Positions 1-45,054 of a DNA stretch of 64,000 nucleotides are shown here, in pieces. Under the pieces are notes generated by a model. It was not told where the DNA came from, searched no databases, and saw nothing but the letters and a program-made list of their open reading frames with translations. The stretch comes from Phycisphaerae bacterium (GTDB lineage: Bacteria > Planctomycetota > Phycisphaerae > UBA1845 > Fen-1342). Made by a program: the position numbers and the translations under genes. Every line of letters begins with the position of its first letter. Positions within the stretch are counted from its first letter, which is position 1. Where the stretch lies: the NCBI GenBank assembly GCA_022072445.1, contig JAJVHV010000016.1, positions 1 through 64,000 on the forward strand. The letters run 5' to 3'.

Positions 1-140
1 GCGATCCGAAAGCGTCCGGGCGCAGGTTTTGTCACTCCGCGTGCAGGGCCGGGGTCACACAAAACTCGTCCAATCCCTGCTAAACGCCGTCCAACAGGCG
101 GCGTAAAGTGCGAAAGTCGAGCTTAGAACCGCTAACAGAA

Positions 141-195
141 CCCACCACGCGAGTGGTGGGTACAGCCGCCCCGCACTCGCGTGCGGGGTTCGGAT
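141..195. repeat. Inverted pair of REP-like hairpins
   Basis: Two 20-nt stem-loops stand head to head. The first has arms CCCACCAC/GTGGTGGG with loop GCGA (141-160). The second has arms CCCCGCAC/GTGCGGGG with loop TCGC (169-188) and is followed by TTCGGAT. The second has the same architecture and TTCGGAT flank as the units of the 42.84-43.97 kb array but different stem bases, so pairing is kept while sequence changes. The pair lies about 55 bp upstream of the first secreted-protein gene. Bases 1-140 hold no gene I can support. Confidence 0.7.
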
Positions 196-4133: not shown

Positions 4134-4168
4134 GCCTCCGAACGCCGACTGGCGTCGGGGGTTCGGAT
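4134..4168. repeat. Solitary REP-like hairpin, same family as the 42.8 kb array
   Basis: The flanks GCCTCCG and TTCGGAT match the array unit, but the stem is CCGAC/GTCGG around loop TGGC, extended imperfectly by CG and GGG. It differs from the array stem at several positions yet still pairs. It lies in the intergenic space between convergent genes. Confidence 0.65.
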
Positions 4169-38705: not shown

Positions 38706-41702
38706 CTATGGCCCCTGCAGGCACGTCACGAACCCGTCAACGTCAAACCCGCTGACGGTTCCGTCGCCATTCACGTCGCCGCTGCACGGCGAACAGGGCG
38801 ACCCGCCGCCGGTCAGCAGCCCGACGAAGGGATCGATGTCGAAGCCGTTGACCGTTCCGTCGCAGTTCACGTCGCAGGGATCGCAGGCGGCGGTACAAGC
38901 CGCGGTCGCGGCCCAGCTTGCACCGGAGAGGAAGCCATCGAGGTTTCCGGCCAGGTCGCTGGTGCTCAGGCCGGCGCCTTCGTCGAAGCGATAGTAGAGC
39001 AGCAGGTTGGGTTCGGAGCCGATCAGAGTCGTGTTGAAATTCGCCGCGATCTCCGCCGCGCTCCGCGCCACGTTCCAGATGCGGAACTCGTCGATCCGGC
39101 CGCGGAAATAGTTGCCCGAACCGTTGACGCCGACCCGCAGGCTGTAGGTCCCCGTCTCGCGCGGGTCCATGCCAGCTTTCTGGGCCTCCAGCACGCCGTT
39201 GCGGTAAATCTCCATCTTGGCACCACTCTGGCTGGCGACGAACGCGAAGTGCTGCCACGAACCCACGATCGGCTCCGGCGGACTGTACGCCAGGCGCCCG
39301 CCGCCGTTGACGTTGCCGAAGTCCCAATACACGACTCCGTCGGACCACGGCACGTGTGCCTGGAATCGATTGAAGGTGTGATCCGGGCTGAAGCCGAACG
39401 AAGATTGAGTGGCGGCCGCGTCGACGAATTGCCATAGCTCGACGGTGATTTCGGTTCGCGACGCGACGCCCGAGATCGACGGCACGTTGACCATGTCGTC
39501 GCCGTCGAACCCGACCGCGTAGCCTGGGAACGGACCGATGCCGTCGCACGTCACTCCGTCGCCCATGAACTCGCCGCCCGCCGCCGCGCAATCGACCTCG
39601 TACATCACCGCGCAGACACCCGCGGTGCCGGTTCCGCAGCAGGCGCCCGGCGTCGGGCACGGGCCGGCGTCGCAACTCGTTCCGTCGCCCTGGTAGCTGC
39701 CGCCGAACGCGTCGCACGCCTCGTGTGTCGTCGTCATGCAGGTGCCGTCGAAGAAGCAGCATTGCCCGGTGTCGTTCGCGCAGTCATTGGTCGGAACCCA
39801 CGTCGCGCCGACCAGCGATCCGTCGTGGTTTCCGGCGGAATCGGCCGCGACAGTTCCCTGAGCCTCATCCAGCCGGTAATACGCGAAGAGCCCCGGCTCG
39901 TTGCCGGTCAGCGTCTGGTCGTAGTTTGCGGCGATGTCCGCGGCGCTGCGTGCCACGTTCCAGACGCGAAACTCGTCGATCCGGCCATTGAAGAAGCGCG
40001 ACGAGGCCAGGGCGCCGATTCTCAGGTTGTGCCCCGCGTTGATGTTGTACGGCGACATGCCCGCCTTCTGCGCCTCGAGCACGCCGTTGCGGTAGATTTC
40101 CATTTTGTTGCCGCTCTGGCTCGCCACCAGTGCAAAATGCTGCCAGCGGCCGGCGACCTGCTCGGGCGGGCTGTAGGTCAGCCGCCCGCCGGTGTTGATG
40201 TTGCCGAAATCCCAGAAGACGGCGCCTGTCGACCAGGGCACGTGTGCCTGGCAGCGGTTGGTGGCCTGGTCGGTGCTCATGCCGAACGTCGAGCGCTGCG
40301 CCTGCTCGTCGGAGAACTGCCAGAATTCGATCGTGATTTCGGTAGTCGGCGCCACGAGCCCCCAGCCGGGCACCTCGACGTAGTCGTCCGCACCGTCGAA
40401 ATTCAGCGCCACGCCGTCGAACGGCGCGCCCGCCAGCGAGCAGACCGCGTTCAGATGCGGCAGAATTGCCTCGTTCACGGTCCGCGTGTGCATCTCCATC
40501 CGCACGCAGCCCATTCCGCTCGGGCACCCGTGGCAATAGCTCATGATCGTGCCGTTGGGACACACGGAACAATCGCCGCCGGCGCAGTTGTCGATCTGCG
40601 GGTTCATGTCGTGCGTGTGCGGCGCGCCGAAGTTGTGGCCCGTCTCGTGCGCTACGACAAACAGGTCCCAGTTCGCCCCGCTGTTGTTCTGAATCGGATA
40701 GGGGAAATACCCGCCCAGGCAACTCGACAGCGCGTAGCCATACGTCCCGTTGCACACCACGCCGACCCACGCCACGCCGCCGCCCAGGCAGCGCCCCGAG
40801 AAAATGTGCGCCAAATGCCGGAACACGCCGCCCTGCGTCGAGTTCCACACGCTCTGAAACTGGCTGAGCTGGGCGCCCATGTCCGTCTGATCCCACGGAT
40901 CGGCCGGCGTCTCCCACAGCCGCAGGTAACTGATCATCACGCGGCAGTTGAAATCGCGCGTGTAGATCGACGACATCCCGCCCACCAGCGTCGCCGCATA
41001 CGCCGCCGCCGCCGTCGTGTTCCCGCCGAACAGATTGGCCGTGAATTCGTGGTCGGTGTCGATCGCCATGTACGCCACGCGGCAGGGCGGCGCCTCGCGC
41101 GACGCGCCGGATGCACCGTCTTCCGGAGAGGCCGCGCCCACCAGCTCCAGCCCATCCGAGCCACACATGAAGCGCGACGGGTCGATGAACTCCTCCGGCA
41201 GCGACGCCACGCTGTAGATCACGGTCTCGCGCCATTCGTCCGCGCGGCCGCTCGAAATCAGCATGGTCTGCCCATCGCATTGAACGAACCCATACGCAAA
41301 GAACGGCGAGAGCGCCAGAAACGCGCGCGAGTCGTCCGCGCCCACGACTCGGCCGGCGAACATGACCACCGGCGGCGTCTCGGTTGGCGTATCGCCGCCG
41401 GCACCGCCCAGAACGACCTGTGCCCCGGGCATGAACGCTTCGACGCGCTCCAGCGCGATGTCCGACGGCGCGCCGCGCCCCAGATCGACGTCGCGCAGGC
41501 GGATGCCGTATCGATCGGCCGCCTGCTCATAGGTCGGGGTGCTGATCGGCCGCGCATCGCCGAGCAGCGCGTCGGCCGAGACAGCCTGCCCCGCCGCGCT
41601 CGCCGCAAGCACCACGGCCAGGCCCAGAACCACGCCCGCACCGGCCAGCGGCCGCCGCAGGTGTGCCGATGAGTGAAATGCGCCGGCTGTTCCGAGCGTC
41701 AT
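38706..41702 (-). CDS. Secreted M12-like zinc metalloprotease with two LamG domains and dockerin tail
   Basis: A 998-residue exported protease. The start at 41702 follows GGAGGAGACGG, and the signal peptide is [21 protein letters not shown] ~130-residue N-terminal pro-like region precedes the reprolysin/metzincin domain, whose Zn motif [11 protein letters not shown] and downstream Met-turn region TIMSYCHGC are intact. Two LamG/concanavalin-like domains follow ([13 protein letters not shown]...; [13 protein letters not shown]...). They are closely similar to each other ([27 protein letters not shown] and its second copy) and are separated by CC-rich linkers ([22 protein letters not shown]). 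The last ~60 residues are two dockerin-like loops ([37 protein letters not shown]). It probably degrades extracellular protein or glycoprotein. Confidence 0.92.
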
Positions 41703-41935
41703 GTCCGTCTCCTCCGTATTTCCCCCGGTTCGTTCGAGCCACGGCAGCGCAAACCGCGGCCTGGCACCGCCGCACATTGCGGTGCCCGTCTCTGCTCCAG
41801 TCTACGAGCATCAGGCGTGCCGCGGAAGCGGAAATCGTGACACCGGCTCGCGGTGTTGGCACGTGTCCGGTTGCGACTTATCGGCCCCGCAAGCTGCGTT
41901 TGCCCGCCGTGCCGCCACTGCTTATCTTCCCCCTC

Positions 41936-42817
41936 ATGCCCGAGCCGTCCGCGCCCCAGCTCCGACCCGAATTGCTGCTCGCCTGGTTGCGGAGCGACGC
42001 GCGGTTGGGAATCGCGCACTGGGCCGTCATGCCGACACGGCGTGTATCCGCGGCCGCGCGCTCCGCCGCGGGTGCCGCGTCGGTTCGGGACGAGCGCGCT
42101 GCCGAACGATCGGCATCCGCACTGAGTGCGCCTCGACCCGCGGGCGTCGCCGTGGCACCGGCACCCGCCGGCCGCAGCGCTCTCGCCCTGCCCGTCGCGC
42201 CCGAGGGCGCCGTCGCTGATCCGGCGGGCGAACTGGCGACGCTCGATGCATCTTTCGTCCGCGGCTGCGTACGCTGCGGCCTGCACGCGCAGCGCACGCA
42301 AACGGTCTTCGGCGTCGGCGATCCGCGCGCGGCGCTGGTGTTCGTGGGAGAGGGTCCGGGCGCCGATGAGGACTTGCAGGGCAAGCCGTTCGTGGGCCGC
42401 GCCGGCCAACTGCTGACGCGCATGATCGCCGCCATGTCGCTGACGCGCGAACAGGTGTACATCTGCAACGTGGTCAAGTGCCGCCCGCCGGGCAATCGCA
42501 CGCCCAGCGATGACGAGATGGCGACGTGTTCGCCGTTTCTGTTCCGGCAACTGGCGGTCATCCGGCCGCGCGTGATCGTGGCGCTGGGTCGGCCGGCGAC
42601 GCAGACGCTGCTGGCAAGCCGGGCACCGATCAGCGCGCTGCGCGGCCGATTCCACGATTTTCCGCCGCCCGCGCTCGCCGACCACGGCCTGCCACCGGCG
42701 CGCCTCATGCCGACGTTCCACCCCGCCTACCTGCTCCGCAGCCCCGGCGAAAAGGGCAAGACCTGGGACGACCTGAAACAGGTCATGGCGTTCCTCGGAA
42801 TCCCCGTTCCGCCCTGA
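41936..42817 (+). CDS. Family 4 uracil-DNA glycosylase, [4Fe-4S] type
   Basis: A 293-residue DNA-repair enzyme that removes uracil from DNA. The Fe-S cysteines are complete: GCVRCGLH, then [20 protein letters not shown] with the 16-residue spacing typical of the family. The catalytic/uracil-binding block is [20 protein letters not shown], and the C-terminal motif is [11 protein letters not shown]. The N-terminal ~100 residues are an Ala/Pro-rich non-conserved extension. The start at 41936 ([14 protein letters not shown]) is one of several possible. It is divergent from the metalloprotease and is followed by the hairpin array. Confidence 0.93.
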
Positions 42818-42840
42818 TCGCTGCGCGTGCTCGAGCACAC

Positions 42841-43970
42841 CTGCCGCGCCTCCGGCCCCTCACTCGCGTGAGGGGTTCGGATGCGTCGACGTTCGTCGGG
42901 CAGCCCGATCCGGTCGACGCTCATCGGGCGCCCGATCCGGATGGGTCGACGTTTGTCGGACGGCCCTATCCGAACCCCCGACGGCAGTCGGGGGCCGACC
43001 GGCGAGGACGCGCGTCGCCCTGACAACCATCCTGACGCAACACACCTGCCGCGCCTCCGACCCCTCACTCGCGTGAGGGGTTCGGATGCGACGTTCCCGA
43101 CGCAACACACCTGCCGCGCCTCCGGCCCCTCACTCGCGTGAGGGGTTCATGGGTCGACGCTCAACGGGCACCCGATCCGGTCAGCGCTCGTCGGGCGCCC
43201 GATCCGGATGGGTCGACGTTTGTCGGACGGCCCTATCCGAACCCCCGACGGCAGTCGGGGGCCGACCGGCGAGGACGCGCGTCGCCCTGACAACCATCCT
43301 GACGCAACACACCTGCCGCGCCTCCGACCCCTCACTCGCGTGAGGGGTTCGGATGCGACGTTCCCGACGCAATGCGCCTGCCGCGCCTCCGGCCCCTCAC
43401 TCGCGTGAGGGGTTCGGATGCGTCGACGCTCGTCGGGCGCCCGATCCGGATGGGTCGACGTTTGTCGGACGGCCCTATCCGAACCCCCGACGGCAGTCGG
43501 GGGCCGACCGGCGAGGACGCGCGTCGCCCTGACAACGTTTCGTACGCAACACGCCTGCCGCGCCTCCGGCCCCTCACTCGCGTGAGGGGTTCGGATGCGT
43601 CGACGTTCGTCGGGCAGCCCGATCCGGTCGACGCTCATCGGGCGCCCGATCCGGATGGGTCGACGTTTGTCGGACGGCCCTATCCGAACCCCCGACGGCA
43701 GTCGGGGGCCGACCGGCGAGGACGCGCGTCGCCCTGACAACCATCCTGACGCAACACACCTGCCGCGCCTCCGACCCCTCACTCGCGTGAGGGGTTCGGA
43801 TGCGACGTTCCCGACGCAACACACCTGCCGCGCCTCCGGCCCCTCACTGGCGTGAGGGGTTCGGATGCGTCGACGCTCGTCGGGCAGCCCGATCCGGTCA
43901 GCGCTCGTCGGGCAGCCGATCCGATCAGCGCTCGTCGGGCGCCCGATCCGGATGGGTCGACTCGCAGCCC
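42841..43970. repeat. Array of REP-like hairpin units
   Basis: About 1.13 kb of non-coding DNA. Unit A (about 38 nt, stem CCCCTCAC/GTGAGGGG, loop TCGC or once TGGC, flanks GCGCCTCCG and TTC, the latter usually extended to TTCGGAT) starts at 42841, 43046, 43111, 43313, 43378, 43555, 43760 and 43825. Unit B (about 94 nt, containing ATCCGAA then stem CCCCCGAC/GTCGGGGG, loop GGCA) starts at 42934, 43201, 43443 and 43648, with a truncated copy at 43945. A and B hairpins face each other, so their ATCCGAA/TTCGGAT flanks are inverted. 42841-43148 and 43555-43862 are the same 308-nt segment with one change. ATCGGGCGCCCGAT palindromes link units. It lies between the ends of the glycosylase gene and the polyprenyl synthase gene. 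Confidence 0.92.
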
Positions 43971-43971
43971 G

Positions 43972-44943
43972 TTAGCGCCGGCGGTCGATGATGAATTCGG
44001 CCATGGCGCGGAGGATGCTGCGTGCGTCACTCTCGGGCAGAATTGTGAGAGCTTCGAGAGCGGCGTCGACGTGCGAGCGGGCGGCGTCGCGGGCGTAATC
44101 GAGGCTCTCGGTGGATTCGAGCCGCTCGACGAATTCGCGGCGGGCCAGCGCGCCAGACGAGCGCAGCAGCGTGAGCGACTCCTTGCGCGTGCGCGGATCG
44201 GCGGTGCGGAGGTGGTGGATGACCGGCAGCGTCAGCTTGCCCATGTCGAGGTCGCGGCCGGTGGATTTGCCGGTTTCGGCTTCGTCGCCCAGCAGGTCGA
44301 GCAGGTCGTCGGCGATCTGGAACGCGATGCCGACGGACTGGCCGAACCGGCCGAGGGCGTCGACGGTGCGTTCGTCGGCGCTGGCGTGCCGCGCCCCGAG
44401 GACGCACGCCGTGCGGATCAGGGCGGCGGTCTTGCGAGCGATGATGTCGTAGTAGCCGGGCTCGTCGAGTTCGAGGCGGCCGCGCTGCGCGACCTGCATC
44501 ATCTCGCCCTCGCAGACGGTGTTGGTGGTCAGGCCGACCAGGCGCGAGGCCGCTTGCGAGTCGAGGCTGCTGCACAGCGCGAAGGCGTGGCTGATGAGGA
44601 AGTCGCCCAGCAGCACAGCCTGCTCGTTGCCCCAGCGGCGGCTGACGGTGGGCAGGGCGCGGCGCACGTCGGCCTCGTCGAGCACGTCGTCGTGCACGAG
44701 CGTGGCGAGGTGGATGATTTCGATGACGGCCGCCAGCGTGAGGTGGTCGTCGGTGACGCGGCCGGCGGCCTCGCCGCTCAGCAGCAGCAGCGTCGGACGG
44801 ATCATCTTGCCGTGGTAGCGCTCGACGTGCGCGCACAACTCACGGACGGCGGGCCGATCACTGTGCAGCTCGTCACGGATGATCTGCCGGACGCGCGCCA
44901 ATCCGGCGGCGACGGGCGTGTGCAGATCGGTGAGTTGCAGCAT
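43972..44943 (-). CDS. Trans-isoprenyl diphosphate synthase
   Basis: A 323-residue polyprenyl synthase condensing isopentenyl diphosphate onto an allylic diphosphate. It carries the first Asp-rich motif LVHDDVLDEADVRR and the second IADDLLDLLGDEAETGK, plus GKMIRPTLLLLSGEA and the GNEQAVLLGDFL segment. The length and the DDVLDEA form fit long-chain enzymes making quinone side chains or undecaprenyl-like lipids; chain length cannot be fixed from sequence. The start at 44943 follows AGGAGCAG. The stop lies immediately beside the hairpin array. Confidence 0.93.
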   Translation of the reverse strand: MLQLTDLHTPVAAGLARVRQIIRDELHSDRPAVRELCAHVERYHGKMIRPTLLLLSGEAAGRVTDDHLTLAAVIEIIHLATLVHDDVLDEADVRRALPTVSRRWGNEQAVLLGDFLISHAFALCSSLDSQAASRLVGLTTNTVCEGEMMQVAQRGRLELDEPGYYDIIARKTAALIRTACVLGARHASADERTVDALGRFGQSVGIAFQIADDLLDLLGDEAETGKSTGRDLDMGKLTLPVIHHLRTADPRTRKESLTLLRSSGALARREFVERLESTESLDYARDAARSHVDAALEALTILPESDARSILRAMAEFIIDRRR

Positions 44944-45054
44944 GAACGCTCTGCTCCTGTGCCCCCTACCGGCCGGCGCTACCGCGGCGGGCTGCCGGCG
45001 ACCGAATACCGCGGTCGAGTATGGCACGCCGCGCGGCGGCGGTCCACTCGCGGC

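Follow-up and report, generated by a model that had tools for sequence, protein, structure and literature searches.

The window, by which we mean the whole 64,000-nucleotide stretch of DNA analyzed here, carries an array of short hairpins in the gap between two convergent genes, one for a uracil-DNA glycosylase (UDG) and one for a polyprenyl synthetase. The best named relatives of the UDG protein are from Phycisphaerae and Planctomycetia MAGs (52-58% identity), in support of an earlier reading of this DNA as a planctomycete-type genome. A covariance model search of the window returned the same set of array members that had been listed from the letters: eight A hairpins on the + strand (starting at 42850, 43055, 43120, 43322, 43387, 43564, 43769, and 43834) and four B hairpins on the - strand (starting at 42968, 43235, 43477, and 43682), all between 42850 and 43866. 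The original prediction treated A and B as separate types. Both are present, but B is the A family in the opposite orientation, with the stem CCCCCGAC, rather than a second kind of hairpin. The supposedly constant flanks ATCCGAA and TTCGGAT are therefore a single flank read on either strand, and one A copy has lost this foot. Outside the array, the model also matches 4136-4168 and 163-195, and a pattern search of the window gave 18 matches where 0.75 would be expected by chance. The features are as follows.

41663..42817, + strand: UDG gene, 3' end towards the array (Pfam PF03167, E 7e-38)
42850..42882, + strand: A hairpin not in a dimer (covariance model, 50.8 bits)
42968..43087: dimer 1, a REPIN-like unit of 120 bp, B 42968-43000 (-) and A 43055-43087 (+), feet outward (model matches, geometry)
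43120..43150, + strand: A hairpin not in a dimer, foot lost (TTCATG in the sequence; covariance model, 34.7 bits)
43235..43354: dimer 2, 120 bp, B 43235-43267 (-) and A 43322-43354 (+) (model matches, unit geometry)
43387..43419, + strand: A hairpin not in a dimer (covariance model, 50.8 bits)
43477..43596: dimer 3, 120 bp, B 43477-43509 (-) and A 43564-43596 (+) (model coordinates, 98-bp spacing)
43682..43801: dimer 4, 120 bp, B 43682-43714 (-) and A 43769-43801 (+) (model coordinates, 98-bp spacing)
43834..43866, + strand: A hairpin not in a dimer, loop TGGC (covariance model, 50.1 bits)
43972..45027, - strand: polyprenyl synthetase gene, 3' end towards the array (Pfam PF00348, E 1e-65)
136..195: short dimer, hairpin 136-160 (-, stem CCCACC, 31.0 bits) and hairpin 163-195 (+, stem CCCCGC, 50.2 bits)
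4136..4168, + strand: single copy with an imperfect stem (5 contiguous pairs beside the loop), between convergent gene calls (40.4 bits)

The array is composed of four 120-bp units plus four extra A hairpins. Every B hairpin in the window (4/4) lies 98 bp from an A hairpin with feet outward, and the first of these units (42968..43087), taken as single-stranded DNA, folds as two end hairpins (z = -3.1). Blocks of 300 bp inside the array are 99% identical, and parts of it are recent duplicates. Two further copies had been described as solo. The one at 4136-4168 is indeed single, but the copy at 169-188 is paired with an inverted one at 136-160, and short dimers of this form recur at two other loci (L320 and L323).

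Structure and covariation of the hairpin

Each copy consists of a variable GC stem, a loop of the form AC-TNNC-GT, and a constant adjoining foot. The letters 3' of the hairpin are TTCGGA or TTCTGA, which on the other strand are TCCGAA or TCAGAA, 5' of the stem. Read on that strand, the stem is preceded by 5'-ATCCGAA or ATCAGAA and the foot is CCGA, or CAGA in relatives, which fits the CnGA foot published for class-3 TnpA-Y1 genes. The 54 aligned copies, which had been chosen by that foot, show little or no variation in it.

To assess covariation, copies were picked by their loop, foot, and G-rich right arm, with the left arm unused; patterns that contained GGGG or combined foot and loop had first been used to locate the loci in relatives. 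All six stem pairs are complementary in 61 of 84 distinct sequences, compared to 12 in shuffles, and seven distinct complete stems occur (CCCCTC, CCCCCG, CCCCGC, CCCCCC, CCCCGG, CCCGCC, and CCCACC). The alignment and covariance model were built from 54 of the 84 distinct copies (own genome and relatives) after near-duplicates and two poor-stem copies were dropped. The expectation that the stems covary, each pairing with its own complement, is borne out: 94.9% of cells in this alignment are paired, versus 79.8% when shuffled and 33.8-56.5% when slid, and the covariation score is 0.323 versus 0.079 for the control. In other families of the order, 32 distinct copies give a score of 0.376 versus 0.153, although this count leans towards structure because these copies were found with the model and aligned to it. 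The claim that an AC/GT pair always closes the loop applies in the window, but G-C replaces the loop-closing A-T pair in 10 of those 32 copies.

Dispersal as inverted dimers

A search of the genome and its relatives demonstrated that the motif is not confined to this locus. The window's own genome has 265 pattern matches (124 forward and 141 reverse), compared to 1 for the reversed pattern, and thus a family of at least 265 copies. The hairpin is also present in other families of the order, as found with the covariance model. Copy numbers among relatives range from none to 265: G003 has 16 copies in 4.5 Mb; G062, G029, and G082 carry 29-144 (144 in G062); and the pattern is at background level in G055 and G059. 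Public contigs from Phycisphaerae and other planctomycetes around the UDG gene are without family copies, the relatives include no genome of the window's genus, and no match was found in the phage and viral collections searched or in PHROGs.

The family is organized in a characteristic way. The dimer unit (ATCCGAACCCC...GGGGTTCGGAT at 120 bp; ATCCGAACCCCCGAC...GTGAGGGGTTCGGAT over its range of 118-123 bp) has an inner spacer common to the copies and was seen at 16 sampled loci. Of 53 adjacent minus-then-plus pairs, 32 have a spacing of 97-101 bp, and among the pairs 90-105 bp apart, 32 of 33 are heterotypic, joining one GAC-stem hairpin to one TCAC-stem hairpin. In G062, from another family of the order, many pairs lie 75 bp apart with the feet ATCAGAA and TTCTGAT. 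We conclude that the 120-bp unit is a dimer of the REPIN/BIME type.

The 99%-identical blocks in the window, together with direct arrays in 115-bp steps on contig C6, could be taken to mean that the family is immobile and that its copies were made solely by replication slippage and tandem-repeat recombination. We give this explanation very little credence, because the same 120-bp unit recurs across many contigs, at numerous unlinked loci. Genome-wide dispersal largely refutes slippage as the only process, and local duplication is retained as part of the explanation that we favor, namely a mobile family of hairpins.

Two other arrays in this genome differ from the one in the window. At 219.4-220.6 kb of C6 (L054 9364-10638), twelve A hairpins follow one another in a single orientation at steps of ~115 bp, in contrast to the alternating arrays at other loci. 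At 117.5-120.3 kb of C5 (L053 1534-4270), there are 16 copies of a sister hairpin, CCCCTCCCTTACGGTCGGGGCTCGGA, whose foot type and architecture are as in the studied family but whose inner stem is mismatched.

Genomic context

Context was assigned over 0.9 Mb (83% coding), in which genes were called by a simple codon model. Among the 47 hairpin clusters placed, 39 are intergenic with two known neighbors, 5 are at contig or stretch edges, and 3 overlap gene calls that are mostly weak or marginal, so that 39 of the 42 placeable clusters are intergenic. Like the window array, many clusters lie between convergent genes (16 of 39, compared to 99 of 560 gaps overall; p = 5e-4).

This enrichment, and a hairpin that is both stable and covarying, would suit an element that acts in RNA, such as a terminator, a 3'-end stabilizer, or another structured regulator, which is kept for its function and disperses only secondarily. 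The original prediction offered a structured regulator as one of two possibilities, and we found no positive support for it. The hairpin is not followed by a T run, a scan of 42700-44100 for a GC hairpin and then a T run yielded 0 sites, and the best Rfam match in the array (18.5 bits versus a gathering score of 50) is not significant. Furthermore, the hairpins form arrays of up to 12 copies and inverted dimers of fixed spacing, and their number varies widely even among relatives. A DNA hairpin that is bound by a transposase would be equally expected to covary between subfamilies. We regard an RNA-level element as improbable. That the hairpin family is real and REP-like is, in our estimate, very likely.

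Candidate transposases

Class 3 of the Y1 proteins has been reported from Planctomycetes, Acidobacteria, and Proteobacteria and has the motifs NHVH, W[TA], and Y----Q; its genes are flanked by "atypical secondary structures" with a CnGA foot, at up to ~600 copies per genome (Quentin et al. 2018, PMC6006769). Three class-3-like domains from the window's own genome were used as queries, and matches were obtained in many relatives. One of these, in G003 (same GTDB family, other genus), is a gene for a 162-aa class-3 protein (L196 1151-1636), and this gene carries the studied hairpin on both flanks (ATCCGAACCCGCGACGCAAGTCG on the left and CCCCTCACTTGCGTGAGGGGTTCGGAT on the right), inverted and with feet outward. 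At 40.5 and 48.2 bits, these flanking copies are the only strong model matches among 57 transposase loci. With 16 copies in the 4.5-Mb genome, we estimate the chance of two flanking copies within ~110 bp at ~1e-6. The left and right stems are of the GAC and TCAC types found at the ends of the window unit, such that the unit looks like a gene-less form of this element, judging from this one example.

The class-3 genes of G016 and G015 bear related hairpins with matching feet on both sides, and all three motifs are present in the G003, G016, and G015 proteins. The G003 protein scores just above the cut-off of Pfam Y1_Tnp and below the NCBIfam IS200 cut-off, and a PDB sequence search with the class-3 protein gave nothing meaningful. 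Its AlphaFold model (pLDDT 82) matches ISDra2 TnpA, IS608 TnpA, and the RAYT structure 4ER8 with modest TM-scores of ~0.5, and the enzyme is thus predicted to have an HUH fold.

A Y1 or RAYT gene flanked by the same hairpin, which had been anticipated, thus exists in a relative, but none was found in the window's own assembly (50 contigs, 96.7% complete). The class-3-like genes there (inside alaS, on C5, and on C17) carry CTCGG-type hairpins instead. Likewise, G062, G029, and G082 gave no class-3 match despite their many hairpin copies. Because several contigs of the window's assembly, C11, C12, and C27 among them, end at hairpin arrays, the cognate gene could be missing from it; alternatively, the genome may no longer have the gene, or an enzyme may act on the hairpins in trans.

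Canonical RAYT genes (NCBIfam NF047646) are present in the window's genome and in relatives, and several are flanked by hairpins of their own, some with GTAG- or GTGG-like feet. We considered canonical RAYT and IS200-type TnpA enzymes (NF047646 and PF01797 matches in the own genome and relatives) as the cognate enzyme and rejected them, as none of the searched loci has the studied hairpin on both sides or any strong model match.

The same mobile REP-like family might nevertheless have another mover, either an unknown transposase or, in trans, an IS200-type TnpA or a RAYT of the canonical kind, with the G003 gene merely lying among copies. The existence of RAYT genes in the window's genome would be compatible with this, as would the several copy-rich genomes that are without a detectable class-3 gene and that all hold canonical Y1 genes. 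However, the flanks of the searched RAYT and IS200-like loci lack the hairpin, several RAYT loci have different hairpins of their own, and the foot is CnGA, with GT[AG]G absent beside the hairpin in the aligned copies. Another mover therefore seems unlikely to us, and class 3 is likely to be the mobilizer.

Hairpin amplification and in-frame insertions around Y1 genes

Several loci associate Y1 genes with repeats in other ways. On contig C4 of G015 (L204 1-1140), a class-3 gene has about a dozen direct tandem hairpin copies on its left and three inverted copies on its right, which is amplification beside the gene. On C5 of the window's genome (L208/L005 900-1500), a 424-aa class-3-like transposase frame is interrupted in its coding region by about ten in-frame hairpin-like repeats.

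Y1 domains also reside inside housekeeping genes. On C22 of the window's genome (L062 433-3327), purH contains an entire Y1 transposase domain in frame, between CAELT[RQ]A and CFIKHTN[PA]CG, and the insertion is also found in relatives (L290, L291, L104, and L101). The inserted domain in the window's genome resembles RAYT (class 2) and has inverted GCACAGGCT hairpins, and G007 and G018 have a class-3-like Y1 domain at that site. That different classes have repeatedly used one purH site suggests that this essential gene tolerates insertion there. On C11 (L045 9113-14170, - strand), an alaS frame of 1686 aa contains class-3-like Y1 insertions at two places, both in frame. Inverted hairpins (CCGC/CCCC..TNAC..GCGG/GGGG-CTCGG) border each insertion, and their translation gives PLPHGRGS-type peptides. 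On C27 of the same genome (L060 127-3381) and on C4 of G015 (L190), genes for class-I tRNA synthetases (ileS-like and valS-like) have in-frame Y1 insertions with long tandem peptide repeats, e.g. IGVPPV and PLPHGRGS. A literature search for in-frame transposase genes in housekeeping genes gave only REP insertions in coding regions.

A model for the mobility of the family

Taken together, these results suggest that the hairpins are probably non-autonomous mobile elements of the REP/REPIN kind, most likely moved by a class-3 TnpA-Y1 enzyme. Such an enzyme would recognize the hairpin plus its foot in single-stranded DNA, cut beside the foot, and move the dimer. Copies would spread for the most part in the form of inverted dimers with feet outward (120 bp in the window's genome), arrays would later grow through local tandem duplication, and selection would leave them mainly in gaps at the 3' ends of genes. 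The direct link between enzyme and hairpin comes from one gene in one relative. That class 3 is the driver in the window's genome, and that the hairpins are cleaved and transposed, is inferred.

The original prediction proposed an undescribed REP family moved by a RAYT-type enzyme located elsewhere. Its dispersed, extragenic, inverted dimers and the hairpin-flanked Y1 gene in a relative agree with this proposal, but the likely enzyme belongs to the divergent class 3 and is not a canonical RAYT. The family itself is new, to judge from the literature searched, and well resolved, whereas its kind, the CnGA-footed hairpins of class-3 genes, is known but thinly described. The few class-3 Y1 sequences described earlier were seen as possibly intermediate between IS200 transposases and domesticated RAYTs. 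The family offers these enzymes a well-resolved putative substrate that is present in hundreds of copies and has a clear foot, stems that covary, and a defined dimer, together with a candidate for the cognate gene, and whether class 3 moves REPs thereby becomes directly testable. The family also accounts for a prominent repeat of the window's genome, at which contigs of the assembly end.

Comparison with known systems

As in IS200/IS605 elements (IS608 and ISDra2), the G003 element is short (~0.64 kb) and has end hairpins, an HUH-Y1 gene, and a predicted fold similar to TnpA. Unlike those elements, its ends are inverted copies with outward feet, and its protein falls short of the NCBIfam IS200 threshold. 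The GTAG- and CGTC-tagged REPs (Di Nocera et al. 2013, PMC3733652) are also short, many-copy, extragenic palindromes that often form inverted dimers, often heterodimers, and that are sited mostly between convergent or unidirectional genes. However, neither a GTAG nor a CGTC tag adjoins the studied hairpin.

The class-3 systems (PMC6006769) share with this family a planctomycete host, a Y1 protein with class-3 motifs, a gene flanked by CnGA-footed hairpins, and high copy number. They differ in that the window's genome is without a class-3 gene flanked by the studied hairpin, and the fixed-spacing, foot-outward heterodimers and the stem covariation noted here do not feature in the parts of their description used here.

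The organization of the family resembles that of REPINs (Bertels and Rainey 2011, PMC3116915) and of BIMEs: an inverted hairpin pair with feet outward, spanning ~100-120 bp, dispersed, and found in alternating arrays. Here, in contrast, the foot is CnGA rather than GTAG, and the enzyme is likely of class 3 rather than a RAYT. We tentatively propose, at somewhat less than even confidence, that a second transposase lineage gave rise to dimers of the REPIN type, that class-3 HUH enzymes move feet-outward CnGA heterodimers as single-stranded units, and that dimer formation may be general to Y1 enzymes rather than a property of GTAG RAYTs alone.
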